Source: Gemmata massiliana
Lineage (GTDB): Bacteria > Planctomycetota > Planctomycetia > Gemmatales > Gemmataceae
Assembly (NCBI RefSeq): GCF_901538265.1
Contig: NZ_LR593886.1
Location: 3,617,738-3,681,737, forward strand
Reading direction: 5' to 3'
DNA: 64,000 nt
Shown here: positions 22,046-36,346 of the stretch, in pieces
How positions within the stretch are numbered: position 1 is the stretch's first letter
Layout of the letters: each line of letters opens with the position of its first letter
Translations under genes and position numbers: made by a program
The notes under the pieces: generated by a model
What the model saw: only the letters and a program-made list of their open reading frames with translations
What the model was told of the DNA's origin: nothing
The model's database searches: none

Positions 22046-25000
22046 TTATTTCGACTGTGCCTTCAACCGAGTAACCGCGGCGGCCGCCTCTACTGTCAAT
22101 CGGGCGTCGGGTATTCCGCCCGTCAGCGTGTCCAGTACTTTCCGTGCCTCTGCGGTGCCAATGCGCTCCAGGATCGCTACCGCTCGCAGCTCTCGAAGAT
22201 TGTCGCCCGCGGGTACGACGGGAGCGTTTAGAGCTGCCAGTAATCGCTTGATCCGGTCTGCGCGTTCGGCCGACGGATCGGCCTTAAGAGCGGATCGTAG
22301 TGCGGGAGCTGCTGCGGTGCTGAGAGCTTGAAGCGCTTTCGTGGCCGATTCGCGCTCGACGAAATCCGTGTCGTCCAACTTCGAGATCAGTTTCCGAACC
22401 GTAACTTCGTCCGCTGGTCGCGTCGGCTTCAGTTTGTCTCGGATTAGGTCCAGTGCTTCGGCCGGTCGATCCACCAGTTCCCATGCGGCCTTGTGCGTTG
22501 CGGGTGAGTCCTTGCCTGCCAGCGTATCCCATAGTTTGGTGGGAGTGTCGGCTGATACTTTGGCGCGAACGGGGAACGCGGTCAGATCCCAGACCAGCCC
22601 CGTACCGTCTGCCAGCGCGGTAATTGCGCGAGTATCACCAGCAAGCAGCAGGGCGGTCGACTGAACCGGGACAGCCCACCGCCCGCGTTCGGCTCCGCTC
22701 GTCGTGTCGAACACTTTCAGCGCCCCAGCCCCCGTTGTTACCAGCGTGCGCCCGCCGTCCGCCAGCGCGACGCGGTCGATCTTCCCGGTTTTCACTACCG
22801 CGACCACGGCGCCGGTAGTCACCTCGACGATTATCACTCCTCCGGCGTTCGGTTCCTCCTTCGTGGTCCTTCGAGTGGCCAATAATCGACCATCCGAAGA
22901 AAACGCGATCGGCGCGTTGGCTTCTACCCCGGATATCGTGAACCGCGTGCGGGACGGATCGGCACCGTCAGCGACTATCAGACTGTCTGGGGTCGAAAGG
23001 GCGACGGTCGATTCGTCCGCGGTCCATGCCCATACCCGCTGCTCGGGCGGGAGCACGCGCTCGCCTTTCACTCGACCCGAGGCGATGTCCCACACCACAC
23101 AACTGGTCTTTTCAGATTGTGCTAATTGGCGAGCAAGTGCGGCTGCGGTTTTGCCGTCCGAAGAGACTCGAACTTGGTACAGGTAGGTGAACTGCGGCGG
23201 GTTAGTGACCGGTATGTTGAGTTGAACTGATCTCTGTTCCTTTCCGGTTGTCGGCTCCCACCATTGAACGAACCCTTCGTGGTCAGCGGCCCATGCGGTA
23301 TACCCATCCGGGGAGAAACTGAGATTCCGCACGTAGCGCCCCTCTTTGCCCCGGAACGGTTGTGTGCGCACGAGCCGTCCGTTTGTCAGATCCCAGACCG
23401 AAATACCCTTATCCAGCCAGTCGGCCGAGGTGAGCGTTTTCCCGTCTGGGGAGGCGGCCAACACCGGGAGGTGTCCCAGGTTTCCGGGGCGCTCGAACAA
23501 TTCGGTGCCCGTGGCCGCAGTCCACACGCGAAGCTTCTGACCGGTGCTTGCGATCACGTGCTTACCGTTACGCGTGAACGTGACCGCGATCGGTCGGCCG
23601 GTCAATTCTCGGAGGACGCGCCCGGAGCCGAGGTCCACCAGACAACTGTCGTCCGTGAACCCGCACGCGAGCGTTTTGCCGTCTGGCGATACGTCCAGAG
23701 AGTAGAAATGTTGCCGCGAACCCATATCAAACCGCGCTTGCTCCCGACCGGTCGTGAGGTCGAAGGTCACGAGTTCGGACCCCTTTTGTCCGTTCGGCTT
23801 CCAGGACGAGACGATCAGCGTTCGGTCGTCTGGAGTGAGGGTGGACCGGCTGCCGGCGCAATCCAGGCGGTGCTTTTCTGTGCCCGTGGCCGCGTCGAAC
23901 ACGCATATCGGTTCGCCCCACCCGCCACCGGTGACGATCCACTTGCCGGTGGTAGAGAAGTATCCGTGGAACGTGCTGTCCTGGCCGATTCGTCGTGCCG
24001 GTAGCGGAAGTTCGCGTTGTTTCTGGGTGCTCCACTCGACCAGCGTGAGGCGCGGCTCCCAGGTGAGGACGGCGAGCGTGTTCCCGTCTGGCGAGAAGAA
24101 TGTTGAGTGGAAGTCCTTACCCGGAGCGAGGAACGAGGCTTTCTCTTTTCCCGTGGCGGTGTCGAAGACAACCAGATTCTTCCCGGCGAACCCGGCTGCT
24201 AACCGACCATCGGGCGACAAACAGTCGAGCCACTTCACGTTCGTGGTCACGGGTACTTTTCGGAGCTCGCGGCCCGTACTCAAGTCCCAAGTGCGGAGTT
24301 GTTGGTCGGACCCGGCCGAGAGCACAGATTTGCCGTCGGGTAGAAGAACAAAGTCCGACAGCCCGGCGTGGCGAAACAGCGTGCTTCCCAGTCGCAGGAC
24401 CGCACCGTCTGGGAGTGGGGCGCCGTCTGCGTCGGTCCGCGCCTTCGCCTCGGGTTCCGCGGGTTGCTTTTTCTCGGATGAGGGAGGGTCCACTGGGTCG
24501 TCGTGGGCCGGTAACCCCATTCCGGCGGCCAACCCGCCCACCAGCAGGACGATCGACGCGGTCACCTTCCAGCCCCACAACGGGAACATAGTTCCGACGA
24601 CATCCGCTGTCCTCGCCCCGAATGCCGCTCCCGTGCGTTGGGCGAGCGTGAGGGGAACCGCGGCCGTGAGCCCTGAGCCGCTGAGTGCAGCCGCGACCAG
24701 CCCCAGCCCACTGACTCCGCGGCGCGTGAGTCGGCGGTTCAGCCGGTCCAGTCCGTCGGCCAATCGGCGCTTGAGGGTGCTCAGTGACACTCCGAGGACG
24801 GCGGCTGCGGCGTCCCGCGTTTGCCCGTCCAGGTAGCACAGGACCAACGGCGCACGCAAGTCATCGGGAAGCGCGTTGAGTTCCTCGTCGAGTGCCGCGC
24901 GCACCTCTTTCCATGACAGGTCGGCGAGCGGCTCTGCGGTAATTGCGGGTTCTGGTGGGGCCGTTGGGCTAATTCGTCGGGCCTTGAGCTTCATCGCGGC

Positions 25001-25282
25001 GCGGAAGGCAGTGCGGTGCAACCAGCCGGGCAGGGCGGTGGGTGTGTGAAGGGCTCGGGCGTTTTCGACCAGCGCGAGGAACGTAGTTTGAAAGGCGTCG
25101 TCGGCGTCAGTGGTCGGCCCGAGTACGCGGTGGCACACGCCCAGCACCATTGGCCCGTGCCGTCGCACCAGCTCTGTGAACGCGCCTCCATCACCGCCCG
25201 CGGCGCGGGTCAGAAGGTTACTCTCGTTACACTCCGGACGCAGCGCGCGGGCCAATGAGCGGATTACGACAGGTGCGGACAT
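22046..25282 (-). CDS. ECF sigma factor fused to a membrane anchor, WD40 propeller and C-terminal helical repeat
   Basis: The 1078-residue protein starts with an ECF sigma factor: region 2 at about 26-95 (ELVRRHGPMVLGVC, DADDAFQTTFLALV) and region 4 at about 130-190 (LPDDLRAPLVLCYLDG, AAAVLGVSLSTLKRRL). A hydrophobic segment at about 238-256 would cross the membrane. Residues about 300-880 contain many WD40-like blades (LLPDGKSVLSAGSDQQLRTW, SPDGKTL and similar). The last 130 residues look like HEAT-type helices (KLDDTDFVERESATKALQAL). Fusions of this kind are known from planctomycetes. The anchor suggests that the sigma part is held at the membrane and released or exposed on an external signal; this is inference. 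No separate anti-sigma gene is adjacent. Confidence 0.88.
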   Translation of the reverse strand: MSAPVVIRSLARALRPECNESNLLTRAAGGDGGAFTELVRRHGPMVLGVCHRVLGPTTDADDAFQTTFLALVENARALHTPTALPGWLHRTAFRAAMKLKARRISPTAPPEPAITAEPLADLSWKEVRAALDEELNALPDDLRAPLVLCYLDGQTRDAAAAVLGVSLSTLKRRLADGLDRLNRRLTRRGVSGLGLVAAALSGSGLTAAVPLTLAQRTGAAFGARTADVVGTMFPLWGWKVTASIVLLVGGLAAGMGLPAHDDPVDPPSSEKKQPAEPEAKARTDADGAPLPDGAVLRLGSTLFRHAGLSDFVLLPDGKSVLSAGSDQQLRTWDLSTGRELRKVPVTTNVKWLDCLSPDGRLAAGFAGKNLVVFDTATGKEKASFLAPGKDFHSTFFSPDGNTLAVLTWEPRLTLVEWSTQKQRELPLPARRIGQDSTFHGYFSTTGKWIVTGGGWGEPICVFDAATGTEKHRLDCAGSRSTLTPDDRTLIVSSWKPNGQKGSELVTFDLTTGREQARFDMGSRQHFYSLDVSPDGKTLACGFTDDSCLVDLGSGRVLRELTGRPIAVTFTRNGKHVIASTGQKLRVWTAATGTELFERPGNLGHLPVLAASPDGKTLTSADWLDKGISVWDLTNGRLVRTQPFRGKEGRYVRNLSFSPDGYTAWAADHEGFVQWWEPTTGKEQRSVQLNIPVTNPPQFTYLYQVRVSSDGKTAAALARQLAQSEKTSCVVWDIASGRVKGERVLPPEQRVWAWTADESTVALSTPDSLIVADGADPSRTRFTISGVEANAPIAFSSDGRLLATRRTTKEEPNAGGVIIVEVTTGAVVAVVKTGKIDRVALADGGRTLVTTGAGALKVFDTTSGAERGRWAVPVQSTALLLAGDTRAITALADGTGLVWDLTAFPVRAKVSADTPTKLWDTLAGKDSPATHKAAWELVDRPAEALDLIRDKLKPTRPADEVTVRKLISKLDDTDFVERESATKALQALSTAAAPALRSALKADPSAERADRIKRLLAALNAPVVPAGDNLRELRAVAILERIGTAEARKVLDTLTGGIPDARLTVEAAAAVTRLKAQSK

Positions 25283-26989: not shown

Positions 26990-27097
26990 GGCGAGGCGTG
27001 AAACGGTTCTGGTTGTGACTGCTCTACGTTCGACGTTCCTGAGATTTTCGCGCGACGCGCTCGGGGCGTGCGGGGACTATACGAGCGGAGGAAGCGA

Positions 27098-28414
27098 ATG
27101 AGCGCGGCGCGGCCGGCGGAGATCCTGCGACAGTTGGAGCACACCGGCACGACCGATGCCGAACTGCTCGCGCGCTTCGTCGCGACCAAGGACACCGCCG
27201 CGTTCGAGGAACTGGTGCGCCGGCACGGATCACTGGTGCTGGGCGTGTGCAAGCGCGTGGTGCGCAACCCACAGGACGCAGAGGACGTGTTCCAGGCCAC
27301 GTTCCTGGTGCTCGCGCAACAGGCCGCATCGGTACGCGACGGCACGCGCCTGTGGAGCTGGTTGTACGGGGTCGCGTTCCGGATCGCGTGGCGCGCCCGG
27401 CGTGCGGTCCGTCGGCGGCGCGGGCGGGAGGTTACGGTGGCTCAGTTACCCGAACCACCTGCACCCGACCACGCACCACCGCAAACGGACCTTGCACCGG
27501 TTCTGGACGAGGAACTCGCCGCGCTCCCGACGCACTACCGCGAGGCGATTGTTCTGTGCGACCTGCGCGGGACGTCGCGCGAGGACGCGGCAGTCGCGCT
27601 GGGCGTGCCCGAGGGGACGCTGTCGAGTCGGCTCGCTAACGGGCGGAAGAAGCTCGCGGCCCGGCTCACCAAGCGCGGGATCGCGCTGACGGTCGCCGCG
27701 CTGCCGGGAGCCCTCGCGGACGCTCGGGCCGGTGCTGTGCCGGGCGAATTGCTCGCCCGAACGTGCGAGCGGGTAACGCAATACACAACGAGCGGCACCA
27801 TTCCCGGTTCGCTCGCCCAACTCATCAAAGGGAGACTGACGGTGCGCAACGTATTCGTGTTCGGATTGGTTACGCTCGCGGCAATTACGGGGACGGTGCT
27901 CGCTGCGCGCCCCAACAGCGCGCCACCGCGCGCGACGTCGAAGGCACCTGCCGTTGAGGAAAAGCAGGTTGTTACCGCTCCGCCCGACGCGAAGCACGCG
28001 ACCGAGCCGGACAAGCCGAAGAAGCTCAAGACCGATGATGTGGTCAAACAGTGGCGGCCCCAGTTAAAGGGGGCAACCGACTTCCACCAGATGGGCGGAG
28101 AGCCAACAGATTCAGGCGTTGCGGCGTATGCGTTTCGAGTCGAAGGGCCGACGTTCGAGGAGGTGTGGACGCACTACGCCAAAATGTGTGGGGCGAAGCA
28201 GGAGTACAAAGCGAAAACGATGCTGGTTACCGCTGATAGCGGTCCCAATGGTAGTTTCGTGATATCCGACCGCGTGTACGCGGATAACGGCGCTGTTAAA
28301 CGCGCGCTGTCCGTGTTCATGCTCAAAACGGACACCTACGTCGTGACCGTGACGTTCCAGCCGGACCCGGACGGTAAGGCAATCATCGGCAGCCTCAGTG
28401 TGGTTCTCCGCTAG
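27098..28414 (+). CDS. ECF sigma factor with membrane anchor and extracytoplasmic domain
   Basis: The 438-residue protein has ECF region 2 at about 24-100 (ELVRRHGSLVLGVC, DAEDVFQATFLVLAQQ) and region 4 at about 130-190 (LPTHYREAIVLCDLRG, AAVALGVPEGTLSSRL). A single hydrophobic segment follows at about 251-270. Beyond it come a Pro/Ala/Lys-rich linker and a C-terminal domain (about 315-438) that I do not recognise, probably outside the cytoplasm. The start ATG at 27098 has GGAGGAA eight bases upstream; an in-frame start at 27068 is less likely. It is built like the sigma fusions at 22046 and 33645 but with a different sensor-side domain. No anti-sigma gene is adjacent. Confidence 0.85.
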   Translation: MSAARPAEILRQLEHTGTTDAELLARFVATKDTAAFEELVRRHGSLVLGVCKRVVRNPQDAEDVFQATFLVLAQQAASVRDGTRLWSWLYGVAFRIAWRARRAVRRRRGREVTVAQLPEPPAPDHAPPQTDLAPVLDEELAALPTHYREAIVLCDLRGTSREDAAVALGVPEGTLSSRLANGRKKLAARLTKRGIALTVAALPGALADARAGAVPGELLARTCERVTQYTTSGTIPGSLAQLIKGRLTVRNVFVFGLVTLAAITGTVLAARPNSAPPRATSKAPAVEEKQVVTAPPDAKHATEPDKPKKLKTDDVVKQWRPQLKGATDFHQMGGEPTDSGVAAYAFRVEGPTFEEVWTHYAKMCGAKQEYKAKTMLVTADSGPNGSFVISDRVYADNGAVKRALSVFMLKTDTYVVTVTFQPDPDGKAIIGSLSVVLR

Positions 28415-33608: not shown

Positions 33609-33652
33609 TCCCAGGGTCGATCGCGTTGCGGTCGACCCTGGGATTCATTTTT
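33609..33652 (+). terminator. Intrinsic terminator after the CpsD-like gene
   Basis: A perfect 12-bp stem (33609-33620, 33632-33643) is followed by TTCATTTTT. It overlaps the last codons of the converging sigma fusion gene at 33645. Confidence 0.85.
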
Positions 33653-36176
33653 GCCGTTTGAAGACAAGGACCGTGGCGTGTTCCCCGCCCTCGAAGTCTT
33701 TCGGGCGCTCGTCTTTGTCCGATAGCCCGTGACTTACGCGGAGCGTATCGCCCTTCACTTCGTAAATCCCTTTGTGTGTTACGCCGTCGATTACCAAGTT
33801 GATCTGCTTTAGTTCCTGGGACGCATCGAGCGTGTACCACGTCCCTCGGTAGACGGTGTTGTCGAGTTTGTACACCCGGATCATATTCGCTCCGAATTCC
33901 CAGTGCTCGCGGACAGTCGGTTTGCTTATCAGAGACAACAGCCCCCACTCGCCCCACAGATCCGCGGCCCAGTTCCCGATCTCCACTTTGTCCGGGCTCA
34001 CCGTCCAGACGTCTGAGCGACCGGTGCTGTTCCGCGTTCCCATTGGGTCGTAACGGTACTCGCTCCCCCACGGGTCGCGCAGGCTCGTATCCGGAGCAAC
34101 GAACCCGCTGTCTTTCAGTGCGGCCAATTTCTCCGGGTAAACGCCCGTTTTGGCCTTAAATGCTTCGATCGCGTTGGCCAGATTCAGAACGTCCGTGCGC
34201 GCCCGGCCGAGCTTCGGATCTTCGGGCGGTGGAGGCGCTTCGATGAGCTTCAGTAGCTCCGCGTGGTATTGCGTTCGGACGGCCTTTTCCTTCGCCGAAA
34301 CCATGCCCGCTTTCACTGCGTCCGCGATGCTCTTATTGAACGGTAGAGGGACGTTTTTCCAATTGTCGATGTAGGCCCGGATCAGGTGCTCGTAGCCCAT
34401 GTCGTTGGGGTCGCCGCCGTCCCGGATCACTTCGGCGATCGTCGGAACTGCGATCGCACCGAGTTTGATAAGCTCCCACGGCGCTTCGGACGTGCTCCGA
34501 AGCATCTTCCGCAGCACCGGTACGGCCTTCTCTCCGCCCAGGCGCGCGACCGCCAGTGCCACGGCCGAGCGGACACTCGAATCACGGTCCGTCGCCAGAT
34601 CGTTCACGTGCTCGCGCTCGGATTCCAGTTTCAACAGCCCGATCAGGCGCACCGCGACGCGCACCTCATCGACCTGCTTGTTGAACGAGTTGCGAACGGT
34701 CCGCTTGGCCCACGGGGTGAACCGCGTCAAGTCGATCACGTACTGCGACCGACCGATCAACTCCCCCAGCTCTCCGCCGATGATGTTGTCCAGGTCGCGG
34801 CGCGCGTCGGCCATCGTCTCGGGCACCCATTCCAGTCGGTAGAGCAAATGCTCCTGGTGCGCGATCGAGTCGAAGAAGTGCAATACCTTCGGGTACACCT
34901 CGGATTCGCCCGCGATTTTTAGTGTCCTTTTGACATGATTCTTTTGCCCGATGTTCTGTTCCAACGTGATCGCGTACTCCGCCGCGTGCAGGCGCATCAC
35001 GTCCTTCGCGTCCTTCTTGAGCCAGTCGGTGTCCTTGAGCAGTTCGTTCAGAGTGCGGAGCCGATCGAGTGGGAGTTTGTGAACGAGGCGTGCCCCGAGA
35101 AGAGGTTCTCTGCCCCCGGGGGGAATGCGCCCGGGAATCTCGCACAAACACGAGCCGTCTGATGAGATCCTGATCGTTGCCCCCGGTTGGTTGCTCAATC
35201 CGGGTGGCTTGATGACGACGGTGATGCTCTCGAACCCGATGCGCGGCGCAGCAGCCGGAGGCGGGGCAACGGGCAGGTCCGCGCGCACGACCTCGGGCGG
35301 GGGCGCGTCGGGCGGATCGACCGCGGATACTTCTCCGGGTACCTCAACGGCGGGCGCTTCGACGTCCCGAATCCCGGCCACCACGAGCCCCACGGCGCCG
35401 AACGTGATCGCGAACAGTAGTCCGAGTTTGAAACGAGCGGGAATCATAGCGGGCATCGCTCCGTTGGCGAGTTCGGCGGCGCGCGACCGATCGCCAATCC
35501 CGGAAGCGAATCGGATCGCGGATCTCGCTGTTCCCAGAACCGTTAAGGGTGGTACGGCGTTGGAGATGGCCGTCGGAAAAGCGATCGCGGCCACGGCCAA
35601 CCCGCGCTGTGCCAGGCGCTTGCGCAATACCGCGCGACCGCGGTCCAGGCGATCGCGCAGCGTCCCGCGTGGAAGAGCGAGCCGCGCGGCGGCTTCGTCG
35701 ATCGTCAGCCCTTCGAGGTGGCACAGGAGTACTGGCGCGCGGAGCGCATCGGGGAGTTGTGCGAGTTCGTCGTGGATCAGCGCGCGGACTTCGCCCCACG
35801 TCAGTTCATCTCCAGGCGCCAGCGCCGCCACACGCGGGACCGCCTCGTGACGTGACCGGCGCGCACGCGCACGCAGTGCTTTCAGTGCGAGCCGGCGCGC
35901 GACCCCGTGCAACCAGCACCCGACCGAAGTGCGCGTGCGAATCGTGCTGGCATTGCGCGCGAGCACCAGGAACGAGGCCTGGAACACGTCCTCGGCGTCC
36001 TGGGCGTGACGCAGAACGGCTCGGGCCACGTCGAGCACGACCGGTCCGTGGCGCTCCACCAGGGCCGCGAACGCGCACTCGTCGCGGTCGGCCGCGAACC
36101 GATCCAGGAGTGTGTGGTCGGGTAAGCCGGTGTGTGCGAGAGTCGCGAGTCGCGCGAGTGCGTGTGCATCGGGCAT
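33645..36176 (-). CDS. ECF sigma factor fused to membrane anchor, HEAT-like, GspG-like and TIGR03067-like domains
   Basis: The 843-residue protein begins with an ECF sigma factor: region 2 (about 25-100; ALVERHGPVVLDVARAVL, DAEDVFQASFLVLARN) and region 4 (about 135-195; LPDALRAPVLLCHLEG, AAARLALPRGTLRDRL). A membrane segment lies at about 250-272, then a Pro-rich linker. Residues about 330-500 are unassigned. HEAT-like helices follow (about 520-570; SSVRSAVALAVARLGGEKAV). Residues 656-735 look like the soluble part of the major pseudopilin GspG (LANAIEAFKAKTGVYPEKLA, DPWGSEYRY, GRSDVWTVSPD). The C terminus (about 755-843) resembles the planctomycete domain TIGR03067 (VIDGVTHKGIYEVKGDTLRV). 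The order sigma-anchor-sensor parallels the other two fusions here, with a novel sensor side. Confidence 0.82.
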   Translation of the reverse strand: MPDAHALARLATLAHTGLPDHTLLDRFAADRDECAFAALVERHGPVVLDVARAVLRHAQDAEDVFQASFLVLARNASTIRTRTSVGCWLHGVARRLALKALRARARRSRHEAVPRVAALAPGDELTWGEVRALIHDELAQLPDALRAPVLLCHLEGLTIDEAAARLALPRGTLRDRLDRGRAVLRKRLAQRGLAVAAIAFPTAISNAVPPLTVLGTARSAIRFASGIGDRSRAAELANGAMPAMIPARFKLGLLFAITFGAVGLVVAGIRDVEAPAVEVPGEVSAVDPPDAPPPEVVRADLPVAPPPAAAPRIGFESITVVIKPPGLSNQPGATIRISSDGSCLCEIPGRIPPGGREPLLGARLVHKLPLDRLRTLNELLKDTDWLKKDAKDVMRLHAAEYAITLEQNIGQKNHVKRTLKIAGESEVYPKVLHFFDSIAHQEHLLYRLEWVPETMADARRDLDNIIGGELGELIGRSQYVIDLTRFTPWAKRTVRNSFNKQVDEVRVAVRLIGLLKLESEREHVNDLATDRDSSVRSAVALAVARLGGEKAVPVLRKMLRSTSEAPWELIKLGAIAVPTIAEVIRDGGDPNDMGYEHLIRAYIDNWKNVPLPFNKSIADAVKAGMVSAKEKAVRTQYHAELLKLIEAPPPPEDPKLGRARTDVLNLANAIEAFKAKTGVYPEKLAALKDSGFVAPDTSLRDPWGSEYRYDPMGTRNSTGRSDVWTVSPDKVEIGNWAADLWGEWGLLSLISKPTVREHWEFGANMIRVYKLDNTVYRGTWYTLDASQELKQINLVIDGVTHKGIYEVKGDTLRVSHGLSDKDERPKDFEGGEHATVLVFKRQK

Positions 36177-36346
36177 GGGATTGCGCCTCCTTTATCCCAT
36201 AGTCCCCGATCGAGTTCCCAGGTGCTGGACAATTCGCGGATTTCCTTGTGGAGTCGGGAGGCAAGGCACTCGTTCGGAAAGGCGCTTTGATTGGTAAGTA
36301 GGTTGGTGTACATTGCTGGCGCCACTTCCCCGTGTGAGGTTCCCCC

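Follow-up and report, generated by a model that had tools for sequence, protein, structure and literature searches.

C-terminal extensions that span the membrane or contain WD40 repeats have been described for sigma factors (PMC8999054, PMC8567305). Regulation in the cytoplasm through such extensions is known for ECF41 and ECF42 and has been proposed for ECF57, and IutY is known to be released by proteolysis, as has been proposed for ECF52 (PMC8999054). In addition, detergent-soluble fractions of the related Tuwongella immobilis yielded ECF sigma factors (PMC8567305). The protein analyzed here, from Gemmata massiliana, is of this already known kind and carries a real and unusual tail. An earlier note on this DNA knew of no described system of its type, a statement that is too broad for tailed sigma factors as such; it holds for the pseudopilin head borne on the tail, for which no example on a sigma factor was found in the searchable literature, many subscription papers lying outside the search.

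The gene occupies positions 33645 to 36176, on the minus strand, of the window (the whole stretch of 64,000 nucleotides under analysis), and all its features given below lie on that strand. It encodes a membrane-anchored ECF-like sigma factor of 843 amino acids, for which an ortholog of equal length and 93% identity exists, and AAAGGAGG is located at 36186-36193, 9 nt 5' of its ATG. Sigma-70 region 2 (residues 39-107, positions 35856-36062; Pfam Sigma70_r2 PF04542, 47.3 bits) and region 4 (residues 133-182, positions 35631-35780; Sigma70_r4_2 PF08281, 34.5 bits) both exceed their cut-offs and occur without region 3, the arrangement that defines an ECF-like factor, and TIGR02937 matched the protein with 64.8 bits against a cut-off of 42.9. 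The hydropathy profile contains only one strong hydrophobic segment, a predicted transmembrane helix at about residues 248-271 (positions 35364-35435; peak 2.39, hydrophobicity highest over 249-271), which is followed by a Pro-rich linker. Next come an alpha/beta domain of no named family (about residues 317-422, positions 34911-35228) and a HEAT-like helical solenoid (about residues 429-646, positions 34239-34892), the former delineated on an AlphaFold model of residues 289-650 (four sequences in the alignment, mean pLDDT 78.7) and the latter supported by this model, by its fold matches and by HEAT_2 (PF13646, 30.6 bits at residues 506-564). The modeled solenoid matches HEAT/armadillo proteins at Z 10-12, values that are common for repeats; the HEAT part filled the rows of the structure search, and Mago-like rows for residues 317-422 were weak. 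The fusion and the membrane anchor ahead of the tail domains were thus recovered where the earlier note had placed them, and its list of domains stands as given, though it lacked the alpha/beta domain, the solenoid and the roughly 100 paralogs described below.

The genes around the sigma gene encode a thioredoxin-like protein, an NtrC-type regulator, a histidine kinase and ATPases. No secretion gene was present among the ten neighboring ORFs scanned (window 22-41 kb), and genomic linkage with secretion genes was rejected on that count. Two further tailed sigma factors are encoded less than 15 kb away, one of 1078 aa with WD40 repeats (22049-25282, minus strand) and the other 448 aa long and without a Pfam match in its tail (27068-28411, plus strand).

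The C-terminal part of the tail consists of a GspG pseudopilin head that lacks the pilin N-terminal helix (residues 655-735, positions 33972-34214) and a TIGR03067-like barrel. T2SSG (PF08334) matched the head at residues 655-735 with 25.0 bits (Pfam cut-off 21; E 2e-5), in agreement with the GspG-like stretch first noticed at 656-735. A model of residues 635-843 was built from 25 sequences (mean pLDDT 83.8), with the caveat that pseudopilin sequences in the alignment bias it toward a pseudopilin fold. Among solved structures it came closest to 3fu1_B, the Vibrio cholerae major pseudopilin EpsG, with Z 11.8, 33% identity and 88 residues aligned at an rmsd of 1.8 A (model residues 16-108, corresponding to residues 650-742), and the next rows included V. 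vulnificus EpsG and PulG, so that the structural resemblance on which the original suggestion depended is present. With the Pfam cut-off passed and the predicted fold best matching EpsG, the identity of the head as a GspG pseudopilin is firm. A chance match was rejected, given that three intact orthologs keep the head, that it is under purifying selection and that the predicted fold agrees.

When the sigma protein was aligned with 21 Gemmataceae pseudopilins bearing (G/A)FTL.E and the pilin helix, its match to them began only where the globular part starts and extended through DPWG..Y.YD to the IGNW end. The class III (prepilin) signal and the N-terminal pilin helix are absent from the aligned stretch of the sigma head, which consequently cannot be built into a pseudopilus in the way of a normal subunit. 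The long loop that precedes IGNW in EpsG is short in the sigma head and likewise in the Gemmataceae pseudopilins; in EpsG it is the place of calcium binding. In the phylogenetic tree, the sigma heads formed one group (100/97) that had pseudopilins from two other genera nearby, with moderate support (93/68 and 89/75), and the resident GspG of type II secretion (T2SS) was placed in a separate clade (99/99). The resident GspG is also less similar to the sigma head (E 0.006, 30%) than are the pseudopilins of other Gemmataceae genera. An origin of the head by copying of the resident GspG is disfavored by its placement in that separate clade.

The barrel that ends the protein (residues 738-843, positions 33648-33965) matched TIGR03067 (NCBIfam) over the last 112 residues and profile positions 32-107 with 30.8 bits, below the curated cut-off of 40.15, and its predicted fold at about residues 734-843 is a lipocalin-like barrel with lipocalin-like matches at Z 9-11. 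The TIGR03067-like domain reported earlier is therefore a real match, but a partial one. The best 50 rows of a plain Foldseek search held barrel proteins, none at E <= 0.001. TIGR03067 has 43 matches in the G. massiliana genome, several of them within sigma-factor frames.

A survey of 95 Gemmataceae genomes restricted the complete tail to the genus Gemmata, where it was found in 4 of 19 genomes (G. massiliana and those we number G009, G017 and G011) and in none of the 76 others. The G009 ortholog is 93% identical and that of G017 54%, and the same match as that of G009 was seen in Gemmata sp. IIL30. The G011 ortholog is split inside the pseudopilin head by a transposase-like ORF (L129:6620-7729). 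In the comparison with G009, dN/dS was 0.05-0.25 for all segments and 0.20 for the head, and the head, with values of 0.20 and 0.25, is under purifying selection. Against G017, identity was 67% in the head, 71% in the sigma part and 39-57% in the other tail domains. The closest sigma paralog is 76-79% identical in the sigma and helix part and carries a different tail. Furthermore, the G011 copy adjoins a sigma paralog bearing three TIGR03067 domains, and the sigma and helix parts of the fusion group and of this three-domain group are 74-81% identical when the more distant G017 is set aside. This adjacency and this identity suggest that tails were exchanged on one common sigma/helix chassis. 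Across the phylum, a PF08334 scan showed that many matches to GspG exist in Planctomycetota, where it is common, and that some of them are fusions in long frames. Two non-sigma zinc-ribbon membrane proteins (L126:1731-6152, plus strand; L127:1443-4109, minus strand) combine a GspG head, TIGR03067 and DUF1559 (SBP_bac_10) in one chain and are pilin heads put to use outside pili.

The G. massiliana genome contains 123 sigma matches, about 105 of them with long frames, and the fetched loci hold 106 sigma ORFs. Topology was assessed on the 104 ORFs of at least 290 residues, two of which are overlapping pieces of neighboring loci or split genes. A hydrophobic helix starting at residues 225-295 was present in 98 of the 104, with a median tail of 345 residues, and lysine and arginine were commoner ahead of the helix than behind it in 78 and rarer in 9 (means of 2.46 ahead of the helix and 1.23 behind it). 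Beta-propellers were matched by 31 of 100 tails and TIGR03067 by 9. Secretin_N was found on three sister tails, in L179 (1532-4330, minus strand; 89.4 bits), L160 (2083-4227, minus strand; 75.7 bits) and L158 (165-1973, plus strand; 53.6 bits), the first of which is 45% identical over about 194 residues to the resident 2232-aa GspD and is kept in G011 and G009. Another sister carries a HlyD/RND membrane-fusion adaptor (L190:2082-4220, minus strand; 64.8 bits, TIGR01730 129 bits) in a tail that is kept in G009, G011 and G026. A secretin core domain was seen in yet another sigma factor, which is split over two overlapping frames (L231:111-593 and 443-1900). Secretin_N and RND/HlyD adaptor domains are normally periplasmic, outside the inner membrane, and their presence on sister tails supports an outside location of the tails.

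The resident gspG lies at positions 1333715-1334188 of the G. massiliana genome, with a giant GspD downstream at about 1342217-1347736. This GspD contains several repeated matches to secretin N-domains, and frames of similar length occur in many genomes of the genus. Beside the gspG copies of G009 and G011, genes for GspF, GspG, a GspK-like protein and further products form a T2SS-like operon, as read from the sequence starts only. At E 0.001, the sole PF08334 match in the G. massiliana genome is the sigma protein; the resident GspG is missed because it has diverged. About 140 places in the genome match the N-terminal region of pseudopilins, most of them in frames 300-450 aa long, in keeping with the known expansion of proteins that pair a prepilin signal with SBP_bac_10. 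Proteins with SBP_bac_10 and other N-termini exist as well (PMC8567305).

How the tail should be read depends in part on where it resides. If the hydrophobic segment were not inserted, the tail would be cytoplasmic and regulatory in the manner proposed for the WD40 tails of ECF57; the ECF41 and ECF42 precedents lend this weight, and HEAT and WD40 domains function in the cytoplasm too. However, the strong helix and positive-inside bias seen in about 100 paralogs and the periplasmic domain types on sister tails argue against it, and we consider a cytoplasmic C-terminal half, the outcome that the earlier note had named as fatal to its proposal, to be improbable. Should the tail be outside, the head might dock onto the pseudopilus of the type II secretion system, or onto the platform that assembles it, and the sigma factor would report secretion activity. 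On these sequences the sigma factor could be coupled to type II secretion: the genome has a gspG locus with a GspD downstream, T2SS-like operons surround the copies in G009 and G011, and the secretin and adaptor tails of sister proteins, among them the GspD-like L179, strengthen the hypothesis. It is weakened by the missing pilin stem and prepilin site, by the distance of the resident GspG, by the lack of linkage between the sigma gene and T2SS genes among the ten neighboring ORFs and by a patchy distribution (absent from 15 of the 19 Gemmata genomes), and docking of this kind seems unlikely to us. Equally doubtful is the broader proposal of a Gemmata set of anchored sigma factors with secretion-machine tails (the GspG head, Secretin_N in L179, L160 and L158, and RND/HlyD in L190), each reporting the assembly or activity of its own envelope machine straight to RNA polymerase.

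Domain shuffling offers an account without any pilus-related role, in which the tail is put together from exchangeable scaffold modules and the head is a generic binding surface or spacer. The pairing of GspG with TIGR03067 in the zinc-ribbon proteins L126 and L127, and the different tail of a paralog that is otherwise so similar, speak for this account. Nevertheless, of all tail domains the head has changed least between G. massiliana and G017, which suggests that a specific surface is needed, and we regard shuffled scaffolding as a credible though less probable explanation.

We favor, with a probability of about 0.65, a membrane-tethered sigma factor of the ECF-like type that belongs to a family of about 105 paralogs and has an extracytoplasmic sensor tail with a borrowed pseudopilin head. 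The sensor-tail reading draws on the domains and their predicted folds, the helix in 98 of 104 paralogs, the lysine/arginine bias, the sister tails and purifying selection, and also on the detergent-fraction finding in T. immobilis and the precedents for proteolytic release. The sigma2-sigma4 part would reside in the cytoplasm and a single helix would cross the membrane, an insertion and topology predicted from sequence. The alpha/beta domain, HEAT solenoid, pseudopilin head and lipocalin-like barrel would together constitute the sensor, which may bind an envelope protein or a small ligand, and binding could free or reorient the sigma part through conformational change or intramembrane proteolysis. 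Envelope sensing by a membrane-tethered sigma factor is thus the most likely role, and since a few sister tails also bear secretion-machine domains, the fusion may tie gene switching to cell-envelope events. If the tails are outside, these proteins would be one-piece signaling devices in place of the usual sigma/anti-sigma pair, and a single genome would deploy about 100 different sensors on one chassis. Tailed sigma factors could then explain how the complex envelope of Gemmataceae is regulated, and the secretin, pseudopilin and efflux-adaptor tails provide direct, testable guesses at what some of them sense.

Compared with known systems, the protein shares with planctomycete ECF57 and the Gemmataceae ECF expansion the sigma2-sigma4 part, a long C-terminal extension and many paralogs. 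The ECF57 extension is rich in WD40 repeats, and about one third of the paralogous tails in G. massiliana are beta-propellers, whereas the tail described here combines HEAT, pseudopilin head and lipocalin-like barrel, with no WD40 match in Pfam. The ECF57 group is also marked by two conserved cysteines that link sigma2 and sigma4. Cys87 and Cys152 are present in the sigma protein; of 106 paralogs, only 3 had the two cysteines in a motif search, and such a link was rejected as a family feature. With ECF48, ECF52 and ECF53 (SCO4117) and with IutY (ECF243), in which a regulatory part that spans the membrane is joined to the sigma factor, the protein has in common a sigma factor, a membrane helix and a (here predicted) outside domain in one chain, although neither an anti-sigma zinc finger nor a FecR-like domain was detected in it. 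The barrel resembles the TIGR03067 proteins of Planctomycetes in the C-terminal half and differs in scoring below the curated cut-off. Finally, the likeness to GspG/EpsG of type II secretion resides in the sequence and predicted fold of the head, which differs in its missing prepilin signal and N-terminal helix, in its shortened loop and in being encoded by a gene outside a T2SS operon.
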